64,000 nucleotides of DNA. Source: an uncultured SAR86 cluster bacterium (GTDB lineage: Bacteria > Pseudomonadota > Gammaproteobacteria > Magnimaribacterales > AG-339-G14). The position numbers and the translations under genes were made by a program. The notes under the pieces were generated by a model. It worked only from the letters and a program-made list of their open reading frames with translations. It searched no databases and was not told the origin of the DNA. The DNA lies in assembly GCA_902587545.1 (NCBI GenBank), contig CACILL010000001.1:186001-250000 (forward strand). Reading direction: 5' to 3'. Positions within the stretch are counted from its first letter, which is position 1. Every line of letters begins with the position of its first letter. This document shows positions 4,491-11,352 of this stretch, in pieces.

Positions 4491-5561
4491 ATGAAATATT
4501 TAACGGATAATACCAGAATAACAGGTTTGATGGAGGTGTCTCCACCTGTAGAAGTTATTGAAAAACTTCCAATTTCAGAAAAGGTTTCGGAGCTAGTGTT
4601 CAACTCCAGAAATGAAATTTCAGACATCCTTCATGGGAATGAGGATAGATTGGTTGTAGTTGTTGGCCCTTGCTCTATTCACGATCCCAAAGCTGCAATC
4701 GAGTATGCTAAAAAACTTAAAACTCTCGAAAAAGATCTTAAAGACAAACTCAAAATTGTCATGAGAGTATATTTTGAAAAACCAAGAACGACTGTGGGTT
4801 GGAAAGGTCTTATCAACGATCCTGATTTAAATAATAGTTACGATGTTAATAAAGGTCTTAAGGTGGCTAGAAAGTTATTATTAAAGATTAATGAATTGGG
4901 TTTGCCTGCAGGTACTGAGTTTTTGGATATGATAACTCCACAATATATTTCAGACTTGATTTCGTGGGGTGCAATTGGCGCTAGAACCACTGAAAGCCAA
5001 ATACATAGAGAGTTAGCCTCAGGGTTATCTTGTCCGGTTGGATTTAAAAATTCTACCAACGGCTCTATTCAGGTTGCCTTAGATGCTATTGGCTCATCTT
5101 CAAATAGCCATATTTTTCTTTCCATCACAAAAGAAGGAAAATCTGCTATTTTCAATTCCTCTGGAAATAGAGATTGTCATGTCATATTAAGAGGTGGAGA
5201 GACCCCAAATTATTCAAAAAAAGATATACAAAAAGTTAATGAGGATTTGAAAAACTCAAATTTAACTCAAAAAATTATGGTTGATATGTCTCATGGAAAC
5301 AGTCAAAAACAGTTCAAAAAACAACTCATTGTGAATAAAGATATCTCCGATCAAATTGCATCAGGAGATCAAAGTATTTTTGGAGTCATGATTGAGAGTA
5401 ACCTTGAGGAAGGAAACCAAAAAATAGATTCTCTTAAAAACCTTAAATACGGTCAAAGTGTTACTGATGCTTGCGTCAGTTGGAAAGATACTGAAGTAAT
5501 GCTAAAACTTTTAGCTAAAGCAGTTGATGCAAGGAGAGAAAAACTTAAGCGTTCTGCCTAA
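4491..5561 (+). CDS. 3-deoxy-7-phosphoheptulonate (DAHP) synthase, class I
   Basis: First enzyme of the shikimate pathway, condensing phosphoenolpyruvate with erythrose 4-phosphate; 356 residues, the usual length of the AroF/AroG/AroH type. The metal ligand Cys is C61 in VVGPCSIHDP. Further landmarks are the KPRTTVGWKG substrate loop, GARTTESQIHRELASGLSCPVGFKN, and the C-terminal DMSHGNSQKQ metal-binding segment. The N-terminal extension before the barrel is where feedback inhibitors bind in E. coli, but which amino acid regulates this copy cannot be read from the sequence. The next gene starts 4 bases after the stop, so the replication pair downstream is probably co-transcribed. aroK and aroB lie at 48.3-49.9 kb. 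Confidence 0.93.
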   Translation: MKYLTDNTRITGLMEVSPPVEVIEKLPISEKVSELVFNSRNEISDILHGNEDRLVVVVGPCSIHDPKAAIEYAKKLKTLEKDLKDKLKIVMRVYFEKPRTTVGWKGLINDPDLNNSYDVNKGLKVARKLLLKINELGLPAGTEFLDMITPQYISDLISWGAIGARTTESQIHRELASGLSCPVGFKNSTNGSIQVALDAIGSSSNSHIFLSITKEGKSAIFNSSGNRDCHVILRGGETPNYSKKDIQKVNEDLKNSNLTQKIMVDMSHGNSQKQFKKQLIVNKDISDQIASGDQSIFGVMIESNLEEGNQKIDSLKNLKYGQSVTDACVSWKDTEVMLKLLAKAVDARREKLKRSA

Positions 5562-5565
5562 GTTA

Positions 5566-6522
5566 ATGTCAAAAAGAACAAATTTATTAAATTTTGATAA
5601 AGAAATTGCATCTACCATTGGTTTATATGAAGCAATTGTTCTTCAAATATTCAAGTCTGAAAATAAACAAAACTTAACTCAGCTTTTTGACAAGCTTTCT
5701 TTTATCGAAAATAAGGAAGTTCGTAAAGTCTTAAAGAAACTTCTGAAGCTTAAACTGATCGAAAAAACATCGAGAGAAACTTTTTGTTTGAAATCCAAAA
5801 TCAAAGAAACTATCCCAGAAAGAAAGCAAAATATTTCCAAGGGATATCTTCCTTCAAACAATATTTTGAAAGAAGCCAAAAGCCTCGGTATTTCTGAGGA
5901 CTTCATTGGAAATAAACTACCTGAATTTAGAGCTTATTGGTCTGATCGAAAGGATAAAAGCTTTTCTTGGGACTACAAGTTTCTTAAGTATATTTTAAAA
6001 GAATGGAGAGCAGAAGAAGAAAGCTTAAATAAAGCATCAAAAATGAAACCAATTCAAAAAAATTGGAAACCCTCCAAAGAAGCATTACAAATTTTAAAAC
6101 ATGCTGAAATTGACGAAAAATTTATTGTTGATGCCTTGCCAGAATTTATTTTATATTGGAGCGAAAGGAATACTGCCTCTGATTCCTGGAATACTAAATT
6201 TCTTAATCACGTAAAAAATCAATGGGTCAGGTATCAAAATTTGATCTCTATGGTGAAGAAACCAACCAGGATGAATAAAGATTGGAAACCTTCAGAAGAT
6301 TGTTTTGATGTTTTGAGTTTAGCCAAAATAAATAAGAGTTTTGCCGTATCTCAAATTCCAGAATTTAAATTATATTGGTTGGAGACAAAAGAAATGCGAA
6401 ATTGCTGGAACTCAAAGTTTATTCAACACGTAAAATTCAAATGGAAAGCTAAACATGGGAATACAAAAAATGTATTATCAAGATTAAAAGATCATGAGTG
6501 GGCAGTTAACTTCAAAAATTAA
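5566..6522 (+). CDS. Primosomal DnaT-like protein with three DnaT-type domains
   Basis: Predicted 318-residue DNA-replication protein. After an N-terminal helical, winged-helix-like region (about 1-80) there are three copies of a roughly 55-residue unit, at about 94-148, 167-223 and 240-295. Each reads as a WKPS-type opening (YLPS in the first), a helix, LPEF..YW.., then W..KFL.HVK..W. This is the pattern of the C-terminal DnaT single-stranded-DNA-binding domain, which E. coli DnaT has once. I chose the ATG at 5566 because an upstream in-frame start would overlap the DAHP synthase end by 38 bases. The next gene overlaps by 29 bases and resembles a helicase loader, so a role in DnaB loading or restart is likely. 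Domain assignment is by pattern and function is inferred. Confidence 0.7.
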   Translation: MSKRTNLLNFDKEIASTIGLYEAIVLQIFKSENKQNLTQLFDKLSFIENKEVRKVLKKLLKLKLIEKTSRETFCLKSKIKETIPERKQNISKGYLPSNNILKEAKSLGISEDFIGNKLPEFRAYWSDRKDKSFSWDYKFLKYILKEWRAEEESLNKASKMKPIQKNWKPSKEALQILKHAEIDEKFIVDALPEFILYWSERNTASDSWNTKFLNHVKNQWVRYQNLISMVKKPTRMNKDWKPSEDCFDVLSLAKINKSFAVSQIPEFKLYWLETKEMRNCWNSKFIQHVKFKWKAKHGNTKNVLSRLKDHEWAVNFKN

Positions 6523-7093
6523 AATACCTAAAAGCCAAGTAGAGCTCATTAACCTGATTTTTGCTGAATTAGAAATTACTTTTCACAATCAATTTCATAA
6601 AGCATTTCCTGATGAGGAAACACTAACCTTGGCTAAACAACTTTGGCTAGCAAAGCTAGAAAAATATCAAAATGAGATAGTATTCCGAGCGATAGATAAA
6701 ATCATAGAAACTTCAAAATACTTACCATCTCTAAGTGCAGTTTTAAATCAAATTAAGGAATTAAGACTTCTCGAACAAAATATCCCTTCGTCAAATAATG
6801 CTTATATTGAAGCCAGTTCTTTGGGAGAGACAAATCCATTGGATTTTAATTGGTCTCATCCATTTGTTTATCATGCTGGTGCAAAATTAGGTTGGTACAG
6901 GCTAAAAACAGAGCCTGAGTTTGATATCAAAAAGGAATTTTTAGAGGTATATGAAGAAATATTAGAAGAGAGTGAACTCAAAGAAAGCCTATTCCTTTTA
7001 CCTGAAACTAAGGAAGAATTTACTGAAGAAAAACCTCTTTCCAGTGATTTGCAAAAATTAAGATTGGAAAAGATAAAAAAGAAATATTTATAG
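6494..7093 (+). CDS. Putative replicative helicase loader, phage lambda P-like
   Basis: A 199-residue protein overlapping the triple-DnaT gene by 29 bases. Residues about 14-85 match the pattern of the lambda replication protein P family: INLIFAELEITF, a W-containing helix (KQLWLAKLEKY), then IIETSKYLPSLSAVLNQI, where the LPS turn is characteristic. Lambda P loads DnaB helicase at the origin. Chromosomal P-like proteins beside DnaT-like proteins would supply the loader role in bacteria without DnaC. The charged C-terminus (about 145-199) has no recognisable domain. Identity rests on motif resemblance and context. The only ATG near the 5' end is at 6494. No phage genes surround it. Confidence 0.5.
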   Translation: MSGQLTSKIKIPKSQVELINLIFAELEITFHNQFHKAFPDEETLTLAKQLWLAKLEKYQNEIVFRAIDKIIETSKYLPSLSAVLNQIKELRLLEQNIPSSNNAYIEASSLGETNPLDFNWSHPFVYHAGAKLGWYRLKTEPEFDIKKEFLEVYEEILEESELKESLFLLPETKEEFTEEKPLSSDLQKLRLEKIKKKYL

Positions 7094-7148: not shown

Positions 7149-8204
7149 ATGAATATCGCTTCAAGGCTTCTTACCAGATCCAACTTAGAATGGGCATCCA
7201 TCTTTATTGGTTTCGCAATTATATGGATGGTATCAGGATTATTTGTGGAAGAACCAGCTCCTCCAGCATTGATTGAAAAAAAAGACGCTGTAGTAAGGGT
7301 CATAGATCAAAAAGCAGAAAATTTTTCTAAAGAAATTGTAGTAAAGGGTTTCACCAAAGCTGATAAAAAAGTATTAGTTAAATCAGAAACTTCGGGAAAA
7401 ATCATTGATTTACCGATTGAGCAAGGTACTTTCGTAAAAAAAGGTGAAGTTATTTGCTCTTTATTTGTAGCCGAAAGACAGGCTAATTTTGATAAAGCTT
7501 TACTTGATTTTAATTCAGCAAAAAAACTTTATGACGAAGAGCTCTACTCATCAAAACAACTTCAGAATGCAAAATCGAATTTTCAAAGAGCCAAATTGGA
7601 GTTGGATTATGCAAGCATCAAAGCACCATTTGATGGCGTAGTAGATAAAATTGATCTAGATGTTGGAGATTTTCTAAGTCGCGGCTCGACTTGCGCTACT
7701 CTCTTAGATCTTGATCCAATGATGATTACAGGAGATATTTCTGAAACCGAACTTTTAGATTTGACAAAAGAAAGTGATGTGAGAGTGATTACAAATGATG
7801 GCCAGGAGTTTCAAGGTCAAATTACATTTATATCCTCTTCCGCAGATGAAATGATGCATACTTTTGATATTGAAATTTCAATTCCCAATCCACTTGGAAA
7901 AATCAAAGACGGTCAAACAGCAAAAGTTATTGTGTCTGCTACCCCGGAGCCTGCTCACATAGTTCCTTTGTCAATTCTTAGATTAGATGAAGCAGGTAAC
8001 ATTGGTGTTAGAGTTGTTAATAAAGATAACCTTGTTGAATTTTATACAGTTGAAATCATTCAAGATACGGATAAAGGAGTCTGGGTAACTGGCCTTCCTT
8101 TCAACTCAAGAATCATTACTGTTGGTCAGGACTATGTAAACAATAATGAAAAAGTTGATATCGCAATTGACTATAGAATGAACAAGGATGAAAACGTTAA
8201 TTGA
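7149..8204 (+). CDS. RND efflux periplasmic adaptor subunit (membrane fusion protein)
   Basis: Periplasmic adaptor of a tripartite RND pump, 351 residues. One N-terminal hydrophobic segment (about 16-34) anchors it to the inner membrane, with no lipobox. A split biotinyl-lipoyl domain is visible (KVLVKSETSGKIIDLPIEQGTFVKKGEVIC, then YASIKAPFDGVVDKIDLDVGDFL). A short coiled-coil hairpin lies between the halves, followed by beta-barrel and membrane-proximal domains. The short hairpin and overall length resemble the MFP family paired with HAE/CzcA-type pumps in marine proteobacteria. It overlaps the permease by 17 bases. No outer membrane factor gene is in the window. Substrate unknown. Confidence 0.85.
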   Translation: MNIASRLLTRSNLEWASIFIGFAIIWMVSGLFVEEPAPPALIEKKDAVVRVIDQKAENFSKEIVVKGFTKADKKVLVKSETSGKIIDLPIEQGTFVKKGEVICSLFVAERQANFDKALLDFNSAKKLYDEELYSSKQLQNAKSNFQRAKLELDYASIKAPFDGVVDKIDLDVGDFLSRGSTCATLLDLDPMMITGDISETELLDLTKESDVRVITNDGQEFQGQITFISSSADEMMHTFDIEISIPNPLGKIKDGQTAKVIVSATPEPAHIVPLSILRLDEAGNIGVRVVNKDNLVEFYTVEIIQDTDKGVWVTGLPFNSRIITVGQDYVNNNEKVDIAIDYRMNKDENVN

Positions 8205-11200
8205 TTTTTTTGTAGATCGTTACAAAGCTACATTCACATTTTTGACTTTCATATTAGTTTGGGGGTTTACCTCCGTTATACAAATTCCAGCTTCAGCATA
8301 TTCGGACATAAATATTCCTTATGTATTTGTTTCAACTTATTACGACGGCGTTTCTGCTCAGGATGCGGAAAGACTTGTTACCAGGCCATTAGAGCAAAAA
8401 TTAAAAACTGTCGACGAATTAGTTGATATTCAGTCTTACAGTAGACAAAACATGTCTTATATAATTTTAGAATTTCCAGTTGAATATTCTAAAGATGACG
8501 CTGTTCAAGACGTAAAAGACCTTCTAGATGAAGCTAAGCAGGAGTTACCATCCGAATCTGAAGAGCCAATAGTAAAAGAATTCACTTTGGATGAATTTCC
8601 AATATTGGATATAAACTTAATTTCTAGTTCTTCAAACCAAAGAGAGCTTTTAGCTTTTGCTAGAGAACTTCAAACCGCAGTAGAAACCATTCCAGATGTT
8701 CTAGAAGCTAATTTAAGAGGAGTGCCTGATGATTTGTTAGAAGCTTCTATCGATAAAACTAAGTTAGAAAGTTATAACGTCTCTCCAAGAGATTTATACA
8801 ATGCTATTGGAGATGCAAACAGAGCAATACCTGCAGGAGATTTAAGATCTTCTACCGGAAAGTTTTCTGTTTTAGTGCCTTCTGTTTTTGAGAATGTTTC
8901 AGACGTTGAAAATATTCCAATAATAGAAAATGATGGAAAGGTAATTACTCTTAAAGACTTAGTTACCCTGAGGAGAACTTTCAAAGATAGAGATTCCTTT
9001 TCAAGAGTAAATGGCAAAGATGCCGTAACTTTATCCATCATGAAAAGACAAGATGCTAAAGAAGTAGTTGCCGCAAAAAAAGTAAACTATGTTCTAGACG
9101 AATTTCGTCCAAATCTTCCTAATGGGGTGGAAATAATTATTACTCAAGATAGAACTGGTTGGTCCTCTATGATGGTTGGTGAGTTGGGAGGAAATATTCT
9201 TACAGCTCTAATTTTAGTCATGACGATTGTCGTTGGAACTATGGGCCTCAGATCTTCGACAATGGTTGCGGCAGCAATCCCTACTTGTTTTCTCTTTGCT
9301 TCAATTTTTTTAGCCTCGATAGATTACAGTTTCAATTTCATGGTTTGTTTTGGACTGTTAATATCTCTAGGGATGTTAATCGATGGCTGTGTGGTGGTTG
9401 TTGAGTATGCTGATAGAAAAATGGCTGAGGGATTTGACAGAATTGAAGCTTATAAGTTTTCTGCAAAAAGAATGTTTTGGCCTGTGACAATTTCTATTGG
9501 AACGACGCTATCAATTTTTGTACCAATGTTCTTTATGCCGGGAGTTTCTGGACAATTTTTAAGGCCAATGATTACAACCTTGTTTATTGTTTTACTAGGA
9601 TCGATACTTTATGCACTAGTATTTACACCGGCAATAGGTTCTAGGTTTGGTAATTTAGGAATAAGAAAATCCAAAACCTTACAGAATGCGGGTATTCTTG
9701 AAAATGGAGACCCAACTGAAATAGACGGACTTACGGGGTTATATGCTAGAGCGTTAAGTAAAATCATCAAGTCTCCTGGAAAGTTTATAGTCTTTGTTCT
9801 TTTAACTGTTGTAACGATCTTTCTATTATTTAGTCAGTTTGCACCAGGAAGTAGATTTTTTATTGAAGAAGAGCCCATGGAAATGGAAGTAAAAATTGAG
9901 GGCAGAGGAAGTTTTGGTGAGATGGAAAAACTTGGTTTCTTAAAAGAGATAGAAGACATTGTTCTGAGTATTCCAGGTCCAAGTTCAATATCTTTAAATA
10001 TGAATGGAGTAGCAGATCCAAGAGACAGAGGCAATTCTGATGAAATAGGAACTATTTTTATCGAAATGCCTTTTGAGAAAGATTTACGTCGTTCTGGCTG
10101 GGACGTTTACGATGAGCTTTTGGAGAAAACGCAGGATATTCCGGGCCTGGTTGTGAATGCAAAACTTCGAGAAAATGGACCGCCAACAGACTCCCCTATT
10201 GAGATAGATGTATTCGGGAAAGATTTTGATATGGTAACTGCTGCGACAGTAGCTTTGACAAATTATATGAAAGACTTTGTGCCGGGTGCCAAAAATGTCT
10301 ACAACACTATTCCAACTAATCTTCTCAAGTGGACAATAAAAATTGATAAAGAAAAAGCTAAACAATTTGGAGTGACAACACAAGACATTGGAGCGGCAAT
10401 ACAATTCATGACTGCTGGAGTGAAAGTAGGAGAATATAGACCTGAAGATTTAGACGAAGAAGTTGACATTAGGGTAAGATTTCCTGCTGACCAAAGAAGG
10501 CTAGATCAATTCAACGATTTGACTGTAAACACAAGATTTGGACAGGCCCCGCTAAGTAGCTTTGTGGAAATTGTGCCAGCCTATATTCCACCTTCAATAA
10601 GAAGAGTTTCAGGTGAAAGAGCTTTTACGGTTGCGGCTGAATATCAAAAAGGTGCATTAGTCGAAGATGTCATTCCAAAAATTCAGCAATGGATTGCTGA
10701 TAATAATGAATATAAGAAATTACAATTTAGATTTGGGGGACAACAGGCTGAGTCTGATGCAAATTCTGCTTTCTTTTTATTTGCCTTTATAGTTGGAATA
10801 TTTTTAATGTCTATTTTGTTGATGGTTCAGCTAAATAGCTTCTATCAAGTTTTTATAATTGTCTCTGCAGTTCTATTGTCTACTGCTGGTGTTCAACTTG
10901 GTTATTTAGTCACGCAACAAATATCAAGTGCTTTATTTACCAGTCTGGGGGTAATTGCCCTGGCTGGAATTGTTGTAAACAATAATATCGTTCTGGTTGA
11001 TACCTACAATGTTATCTCAAAGGAAAATCCGAATTTATCTAGAGACCAAATTGTAGTTCGTACTGCTGCGCAAAGACTAAGACCTATCATTCTAACAACA
11101 TCAACCACTGTTATTGGTTTATTGCCCTTAGCGTCAGGAATTGGAGTAGATTTTTATCAAAGGAATATTGAGATTGGCGGGAGAGTTTCTGAGTGGTGGC

Positions 11201-11352
11201 AACCTATGTCCTTTGCCGTTGTTTGTGGCTTGACCTTTGCTTCAGCTATAACCTTGTTCTTAACTCCTTGTTGGCTTATGCTACCAGTAGCTATTAGAAA
11301 TACTTTTAATAACTTAAAGAATACATTTTTAAAGACAGCAAGTGAACGATAA
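8188..11352 (+). CDS. RND efflux permease (AcrB/CzcA superfamily)
   Basis: Inner-membrane proton-driven RND transporter, 1054 residues, the full family length. It has TM1 at about 13-31, a first large periplasmic loop, a block of transmembrane helices near 330-480, a helix near 535, a second periplasmic loop, and a final helix block near 860-1040. In the TM4 proton-relay region it reads GMLIDGCVVVVEY, with a single Asp (D399) followed by Gly400. AcrB-type pumps have two adjacent Asp here, whereas several heavy-metal and other RND families have only one. The product may be a drug, lipid or ion exporter; specificity is unresolved. The stop overlaps the xseB start by 11 bases, suggesting translational coupling. 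Confidence 0.9.
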   Translation: MKTLIDFFVDRYKATFTFLTFILVWGFTSVIQIPASAYSDINIPYVFVSTYYDGVSAQDAERLVTRPLEQKLKTVDELVDIQSYSRQNMSYIILEFPVEYSKDDAVQDVKDLLDEAKQELPSESEEPIVKEFTLDEFPILDINLISSSSNQRELLAFARELQTAVETIPDVLEANLRGVPDDLLEASIDKTKLESYNVSPRDLYNAIGDANRAIPAGDLRSSTGKFSVLVPSVFENVSDVENIPIIENDGKVITLKDLVTLRRTFKDRDSFSRVNGKDAVTLSIMKRQDAKEVVAAKKVNYVLDEFRPNLPNGVEIIITQDRTGWSSMMVGELGGNILTALILVMTIVVGTMGLRSSTMVAAAIPTCFLFASIFLASIDYSFNFMVCFGLLISLGMLIDGCVVVVEYADRKMAEGFDRIEAYKFSAKRMFWPVTISIGTTLSIFVPMFFMPGVSGQFLRPMITTLFIVLLGSILYALVFTPAIGSRFGNLGIRKSKTLQNAGILENGDPTEIDGLTGLYARALSKIIKSPGKFIVFVLLTVVTIFLLFSQFAPGSRFFIEEEPMEMEVKIEGRGSFGEMEKLGFLKEIEDIVLSIPGPSSISLNMNGVADPRDRGNSDEIGTIFIEMPFEKDLRRSGWDVYDELLEKTQDIPGLVVNAKLRENGPPTDSPIEIDVFGKDFDMVTAATVALTNYMKDFVPGAKNVYNTIPTNLLKWTIKIDKEKAKQFGVTTQDIGAAIQFMTAGVKVGEYRPEDLDEEVDIRVRFPADQRRLDQFNDLTVNTRFGQAPLSSFVEIVPAYIPPSIRRVSGERAFTVAAEYQKGALVEDVIPKIQQWIADNNEYKKLQFRFGGQQAESDANSAFFLFAFIVGIFLMSILLMVQLNSFYQVFIIVSAVLLSTAGVQLGYLVTQQISSALFTSLGVIALAGIVVNNNIVLVDTYNVISKENPNLSRDQIVVRTAAQRLRPIILTTSTTVIGLLPLASGIGVDFYQRNIEIGGRVSEWWQPMSFAVVCGLTFASAITLFLTPCWLMLPVAIRNTFNNLKNTFLKTASER

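Follow-up and report, generated by a model that had tools for sequence, protein, structure and literature searches.

The window, a 64,000-nucleotide stretch of DNA from an uncultured, probably marine bacterium of the SAR86 cluster, contains a pair of overlapping genes on its forward strand, bounded upstream by aroG and downstream by genes for HlyD/RND efflux (Table 1). The first gene encodes a protein possessing an amino-terminal winged helix and three consecutive DnaT domains, and the second encodes a protein resembling the helicase loader P of phage lambda. Translation of the first begins at the ATG at 5566, and the second reading frame overlaps it by 29 nt and ends at 7093, in agreement with the boundaries given in the original prediction.

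Table 1. Genes, domains and motifs at the locus
Feature	Position	Strand	Basis
aroG (DAHP synthase), conserved on the upstream side, shown for context	4491..5561	+	
DopC-like/O-like protein (318 aa) with a winged helix, three DnaT domains and a C-terminal tail that is disordered	5566..6522	+	
Winged-helix domain, N-terminal, residues 12-75	5599..5790	+	AlphaFold secondary structure H-H-E-H-H-E-E; top Foldseek matches are winged helices
DnaT domain 1, weakest of the three	5830..6024	+	PF17948, 57.3 bits
DnaT domain 2	6049..6240	+	PF17948, 87.3 bits
DnaT domain 3	6268..6465	+	PF17948, 81.3 bits
C-terminal D-H-E-W-A motif, putative partner-binding peptide (role inferred)	6490..6504	+	
DopE-like/lambda P-like helicase loader, 199 aa	6494..7093	+	phrog_109 and Foldseek lambda P
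Helical body of the P-like protein, residues 13-162	6530..6979	+	AlphaFold pLDDT mostly above 90
Putative DnaB-docking helix, isolated at the C terminus of the P-like protein (residues 184-198)	7043..7087	+	AlphaFold; conserved tail; lambda P analogue
Genes for HlyD/RND efflux, conserved on the downstream side, shown for context	7149..11352	+	

The presence of three DnaT-pattern units in a single protein, proposed from the sequence, is borne out by the Pfam DnaT profile (PF17948, cut-off 25 bits), which matches the genome exactly three times, each time within the 5566-6522 reading frame, and which matches the whole 318-residue protein with E=1.8e-62. All three repeats contain the core F-x-x-Y-W ... 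W-x-x-K. These cores align with F124, Y127 and W128 of Escherichia coli DnaT and, via W140, with K143; mutation has shown Y127, W128 and K143 to be important for the binding of single-stranded DNA (ssDNA) (PMC4132743). Because phmmer searches of the PDB sequences with each of the two proteins yielded no relevant match, a fold search was needed. The AlphaFold model of the first protein (33 relatives in the alignment, pLDDT 88) consists of the winged helix followed by three bundles of three helices each, and its tail is disordered. The winged-helix amino terminus and the three domains set this protein apart from E. coli-type DnaT; it is not a DnaT orthologue and is built like the O-like initiators of phages. 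The first repeat is decaying in some sister genera. At two loci of genus g4 in family f1 (L022 and L024) it has no Y-W pair and repeats 2 and 3 are intact, which, as judged from the residues, is decay of one putative ssDNA-binding unit.

The original prediction likened the second gene to the phage helicase loader P, and both profile and structure searches uphold this resemblance. The protein matches the 'P-like helicase loader' family phrog_109 with E=1.4e-13, and its match to Pfam Phage_lambda_P (PF06992; E=1e-4, 22.5 bits) falls below the gathering score of 26 bits, which an orthologue at locus L033 exceeds with 32.4 bits. In its AlphaFold model (pLDDT 90) a helical body is followed by a low-confidence linker and an isolated carboxy-terminal helix. 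When this model was compared with the PDB using Foldseek, the top three matches were chains Z, Y and V of 9oa1, lambda P in the DnaB-lambda P complex, with a probability of 1.00, modest E values of 3e-3 to 1e-2 and TM scores of 0.52-0.55; the next fold was that of SPP1 G39P. Cryo-EM of lambda P revealed a lasso-like segment that sets a helix, tentatively the carboxy terminus, against the DnaB linker helix (PMC6391071). The predicted architecture of the window protein, a body, a lasso and a carboxy-terminal helix, is the same, and this helix, the counterpart of the DnaB-docking one in lambda P, is conserved across relatives. Profile searches revealed no AAA+ match in either protein of the pair, and neither matches the DciA domain PF05258. 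Two shortened P-like proteins (L039:1291-1734 in G050 and L097:3985-4494 in G063) have retained the amino-terminal part and the tail and do not have the W-S-H-P region.

The two genes are widespread in the order to which the source genome belongs, whose members have AT-rich genomes of 0.9-1.8 Mb, features that together with the gene content point to SAR86. DnaT domains are present in 55 of the 61 genomes and the P gene in 42, in both cases as intact reading frames, and this conservation across dozens of species indicates that both are real genes rather than chance open frames. The order aroG, DnaT-repeat gene, P gene (in families f1 and f3 only), HlyD/RND genes is fixed in four families. Both genes are missing from one genome, G003, and in the single-contig genome G045 of family f4 (L222-L274), nearly the whole contig of which was read, there is no DnaT match and the aroG-dnaT-hlyD-RND block is missing as a unit, in a search whose positive controls gave matches; either an assembly gap or real loss accounts for these cases. 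The homology of the pair to phage replication genes could mean that it is a degraded prophage remnant with no housekeeping role, but a single aroG/RND locus shared by four families, the absence of phage genes flanking it, the intact reading frames and the conserved motifs all argue otherwise. We have rejected this reading on synteny and conservation; it is largely refuted and hardly credible.

The original prediction proposed a genome search for dciA and dnaC, and neither known loader was recovered. Profile searches detected DciA in 0 of the 61 genomes of the order, and since the identical search was positive for 298 of the 369 genomes surveyed across the class, it was sensitive enough. Matches of the IstB/DnaC type in the order were assigned by frame size and place. 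Some lie in frames of ~430-518 aa that, in single-contig genomes, are found at about position 500, fitting DnaA; others, mostly below the cut-off, lie in frames of ~800 aa (Lon-like size) or ~320 aa (RuvB-like size). Among these matches there is no DnaC-sized reading frame above the cut-off, and thus no recognisable DnaC. As no other known loader is present, the pair would be expected to act at oriC, and additional action in replication restart is possible. The P-like protein might instead be a DnaB inhibitor that holds the helicase off DNA, in the manner of SPP1 G39P or over-expressed lambda P, and the rank of the loader/inhibitor G39P directly after lambda P among the PDB folds is in its favour; the conservation of P alongside a partner of the ssDNA-binding type, in genomes where no other loader was found, makes this very improbable.

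Multi-DnaT proteins are not confined to the source's order. Outside this order, the survey of the class found them only in G063 and G105; every multi-DnaT genome, these two included, is without DciA. In both G063 and G105 a P-like gene adjoins the multi-DnaT gene, and in G105 aroG also lies upstream. A scan of named genomes revealed triple-DnaT proteins across families of the Cellvibrionales and in Thalassolituus, and in the tested set the gene that follows the Cellvibrionales triple-DnaT gene matches a P profile specific to the source's order with E values of 1e-42 to 1e-54. None of the 25 genomes of the Cellvibrionales set that were tested has DciA. One such locus, L126 (CAJIZO010000189.1, titled Flavobacteriaceae bacterium TMED48), is close to a Porticoccaceae locus (compare L128) and is probably a misbinned contig.

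A pair derived from lambda O and P reportedly was described by Brezellec et al. in 2017 (doi 10.1093/gbe/evx111) in Cellvibrionales, from genomes without dciA and dnaC, and named DopC/DopE. The 2017 paper is cited in PMC13326638. Cellvibrionales had been recognised in 2016 as the sole order consisting only of organisms lacking dnaC/I and dciA, and the replacement was then left open (PMC5109545). In the source's order, likewise, a resident P-derived gene lies beside an O-like gene in genomes without dciA and dnaC. With the Cellvibrionales orthologues standing in for the published sequences, we assign the window pair to the DopC/DopE kind, an O-like DNA-binding protein together with a P-like loader. 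The arrangement thus belongs to an already known kind, given that an O/P-derived pair is in the literature and Cellvibrionales have the orthologous pair. Homology, fold, fixed synteny and the absence of DciA and DnaC lend strong support to the core proposal of a chromosomal, phage-derived DnaB-loading pair that replaces DnaC, which must be amended in that the first protein is no DnaT orthologue. Very probably, in our view, the pair is an O/P-type system for loading DnaB that came from a phage, is now resident and belongs with DopC/DopE.

The helicase itself bears on this interpretation. The linker-helix/docking-helix (LH-DH) module of DnaB is the common target of DciA, DnaC and lambda P (PMC9912922). 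No DnaB turned up in the source genome, whose completeness is 85%, and the DnaB sequences were taken from its relatives. In an alignment from 22 genomes, a small sample, we measured retention as the residues invariant in six DciA-type genomes that are kept in 13 genomes of the order plus G063 and G105. Across the docking helix, which reads DDDWPRLTSA in DciA-type genomes, retention is 35% (0.30-0.36 over the segment), versus an average of 0.66 overall, and the lowest of the 332 DnaB windows all lie in or beside this segment. The loader-docking helix is the most diverged conserved segment of DnaB in these lineages, an observation that is new here. A DciA-type genome of only 0.9 Mb, G339, retains the docking helix, and genome reduction alone is thus not the cause of the change. 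The remodelled helix suggests that the main loader interface has changed. This bears on whether the pair serves replication restart only, as in the E. coli pathway from PriA, PriB and DnaT to DnaC, with an unrecognised loader or self-loading DnaB operating at oriC. E. coli DnaT does work in restart (PMC13377028), and the order of the DnaT-domain and loader genes parallels E. coli dnaT-dnaC; a restart-only role is nevertheless improbable, given both the putative change of the main loader interface and the fact that no DciA or DnaC to serve oriC was found in the genomes searched.

Two whole families of the order, f2 and f4, do not have P, which is therefore not universally needed. Profile searching across every genome of the two families, aimed also at a divergent copy hidden elsewhere, recovered no P. 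Their DnaT-repeat proteins finish with a P-like tail, such as KLENLKKKHHI or LRKKYKI, and those of f1, f3 and Cellvibrionales stop shortly past the W-A motif. We composed a strict pattern for the tail after the tails had been seen; it is present in 8/8 f2 and 5/5 f4 DnaT-repeat proteins and in 6/8 f3 P proteins, and in 0/34 f1/f3 DnaT-repeat proteins and 0/1026 other carboxy termini. When f2/f4 tails were compared with P tails by Smith-Waterman scoring with shuffles and 878 null carboxy termini, a measure independent of this pattern, each of the 12 that were tested exceeded the 99th percentile of the null set (37-53 versus 36; null maximum 42), although several individual tails are marginal by shuffling, with p up to 0.07; f1/f3 DnaT-repeat tails gave background scores. 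A score matrix built from Cellvibrionales P tails was discarded as too lineage-specific, for it recognised the order's own P tails poorly.

In trees of both DnaB and AroG, f1 groups with f2, and f3 with f4, so that the simplest history is one in which P was lost twice and a P-like tail was left on the partner each time. Most simply, these sequences would reflect independent loss of P in two sister families with a P-like tail borne by the DnaT-repeat protein, an arrangement that is new here; the alternative is that the f2/f4 tails represent convergence of a short basic helix. A bolder reading holds that the essence of a P-type loader is its short carboxy-terminal DnaB-docking helix and that, when P was lost on two independent occasions, this tail was kept or re-created on the DnaT-repeat protein, giving rise to a one-protein, ATPase-free loader that operates without DciA, DnaC or P; we hold the chances for and against it to be evenly balanced. 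The W-A motif is lost in f4 and kept in f2, and its persistence in a family without P renders its role as a P-binding peptide uncertain.

Both carboxy-terminal motifs occur among phages. Phage P proteins have similar L-x-x-[LM]-[RK] carboxy termini, and several phage O proteins that are paired with P end in D-x-[ST]-W-A, which is also the Cellvibrionales form of the motif, or in something similar. The pairing of the two motifs, found in phage O and P alike, probably predates domestication. On five viral contigs (L284, L287, L289, L291 and L301) the O proteins encoded upstream of P carry D-x-[ST]-W, or a comparable peptide with a tryptophan, at their carboxy termini, which suggests that such a peptide may be a general O-P contact motif. 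Stenotrophomonas phage StM171 encodes a DnaT-domain initiator (L053:2063-2929) without an adjacent P gene or a W-A motif; it ends in a basic/hydrophobic, helix-like tail (RKRFAEAFALLK) that recalls family f4.

We infer every binding and loading step of the mechanism that we propose for the pair. In E. coli, the carboxy-terminal domains of DnaT assemble into a filament along lagging-strand ssDNA, in which each interface takes up two nucleotides (PMC13377028; PMC4132743), and this filament may mark the site of helicase loading (PMC13377028). By analogy, the triple-DnaT protein would serve as a platform whose three linked domains constitute a short, pre-assembled filament on ssDNA, with the winged helix contributing contacts to double-stranded DNA or to protein. 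Its W-A peptide probably recruits the P-like protein, which, in the manner of lambda P, would bind DnaB with its helical body at the subunit interfaces and with its carboxy-terminal helix, carried on a flexible lasso, docked on the linker/docking-helix module. Through this docking helix the P-like partner would deliver the DnaB ring to ssDNA at oriC, and perhaps also at stalled forks, where the ring would probably be opened.

How DnaB is loaded in bacteria that have neither DciA nor DnaC is a long-standing gap, posed as an open question for Cellvibrionales in 2016 (PMC5109545), and the pair brings into it an entire order of uncultivated bacteria with small, streamlined genomes, probably the abundant SAR86 clade. 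The P-less sister families are a natural experiment on the minimal requirements of a loader, and the remodelled DnaB docking helix is both an independent signal of co-evolution and a source of mutations. Like E. coli DnaT-DnaC, the locus places a gene for a DnaT-domain ssDNA-binding protein before one for a helicase loader; unlike E. coli DnaT, which has one domain and an oligomerising amino-terminal domain (PMC13377028), the first protein has three linked domains and a winged helix, and its partner, unlike DnaC, is P-like rather than AAA+. The proposed job is the same as that of DciA, which shares the LH-DH target on DnaB with lambda P (PMC9912922), but no sequence match to DciA exists in the 61 genomes of the order or in the 25 of the Cellvibrionales set. 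As in phage lambda O/P, a DNA-binding initiator is encoded beside a P-like loader with the P fold and carboxy-terminal helix (PMC6391071); unlike lambda O/P, the pair is chromosomal and fixed, there are two or three DnaT domains in its O-like protein, and the P of the window lies below the Pfam threshold. Finally, the Cellvibrionales loci identified here bear the same triple-DnaT and P pair as the window, and the differences from DopC/DopE lie in the order itself, with its small, streamlined genomes, and in its sister families, where P is gone and a P-like tail is borne by the first protein.
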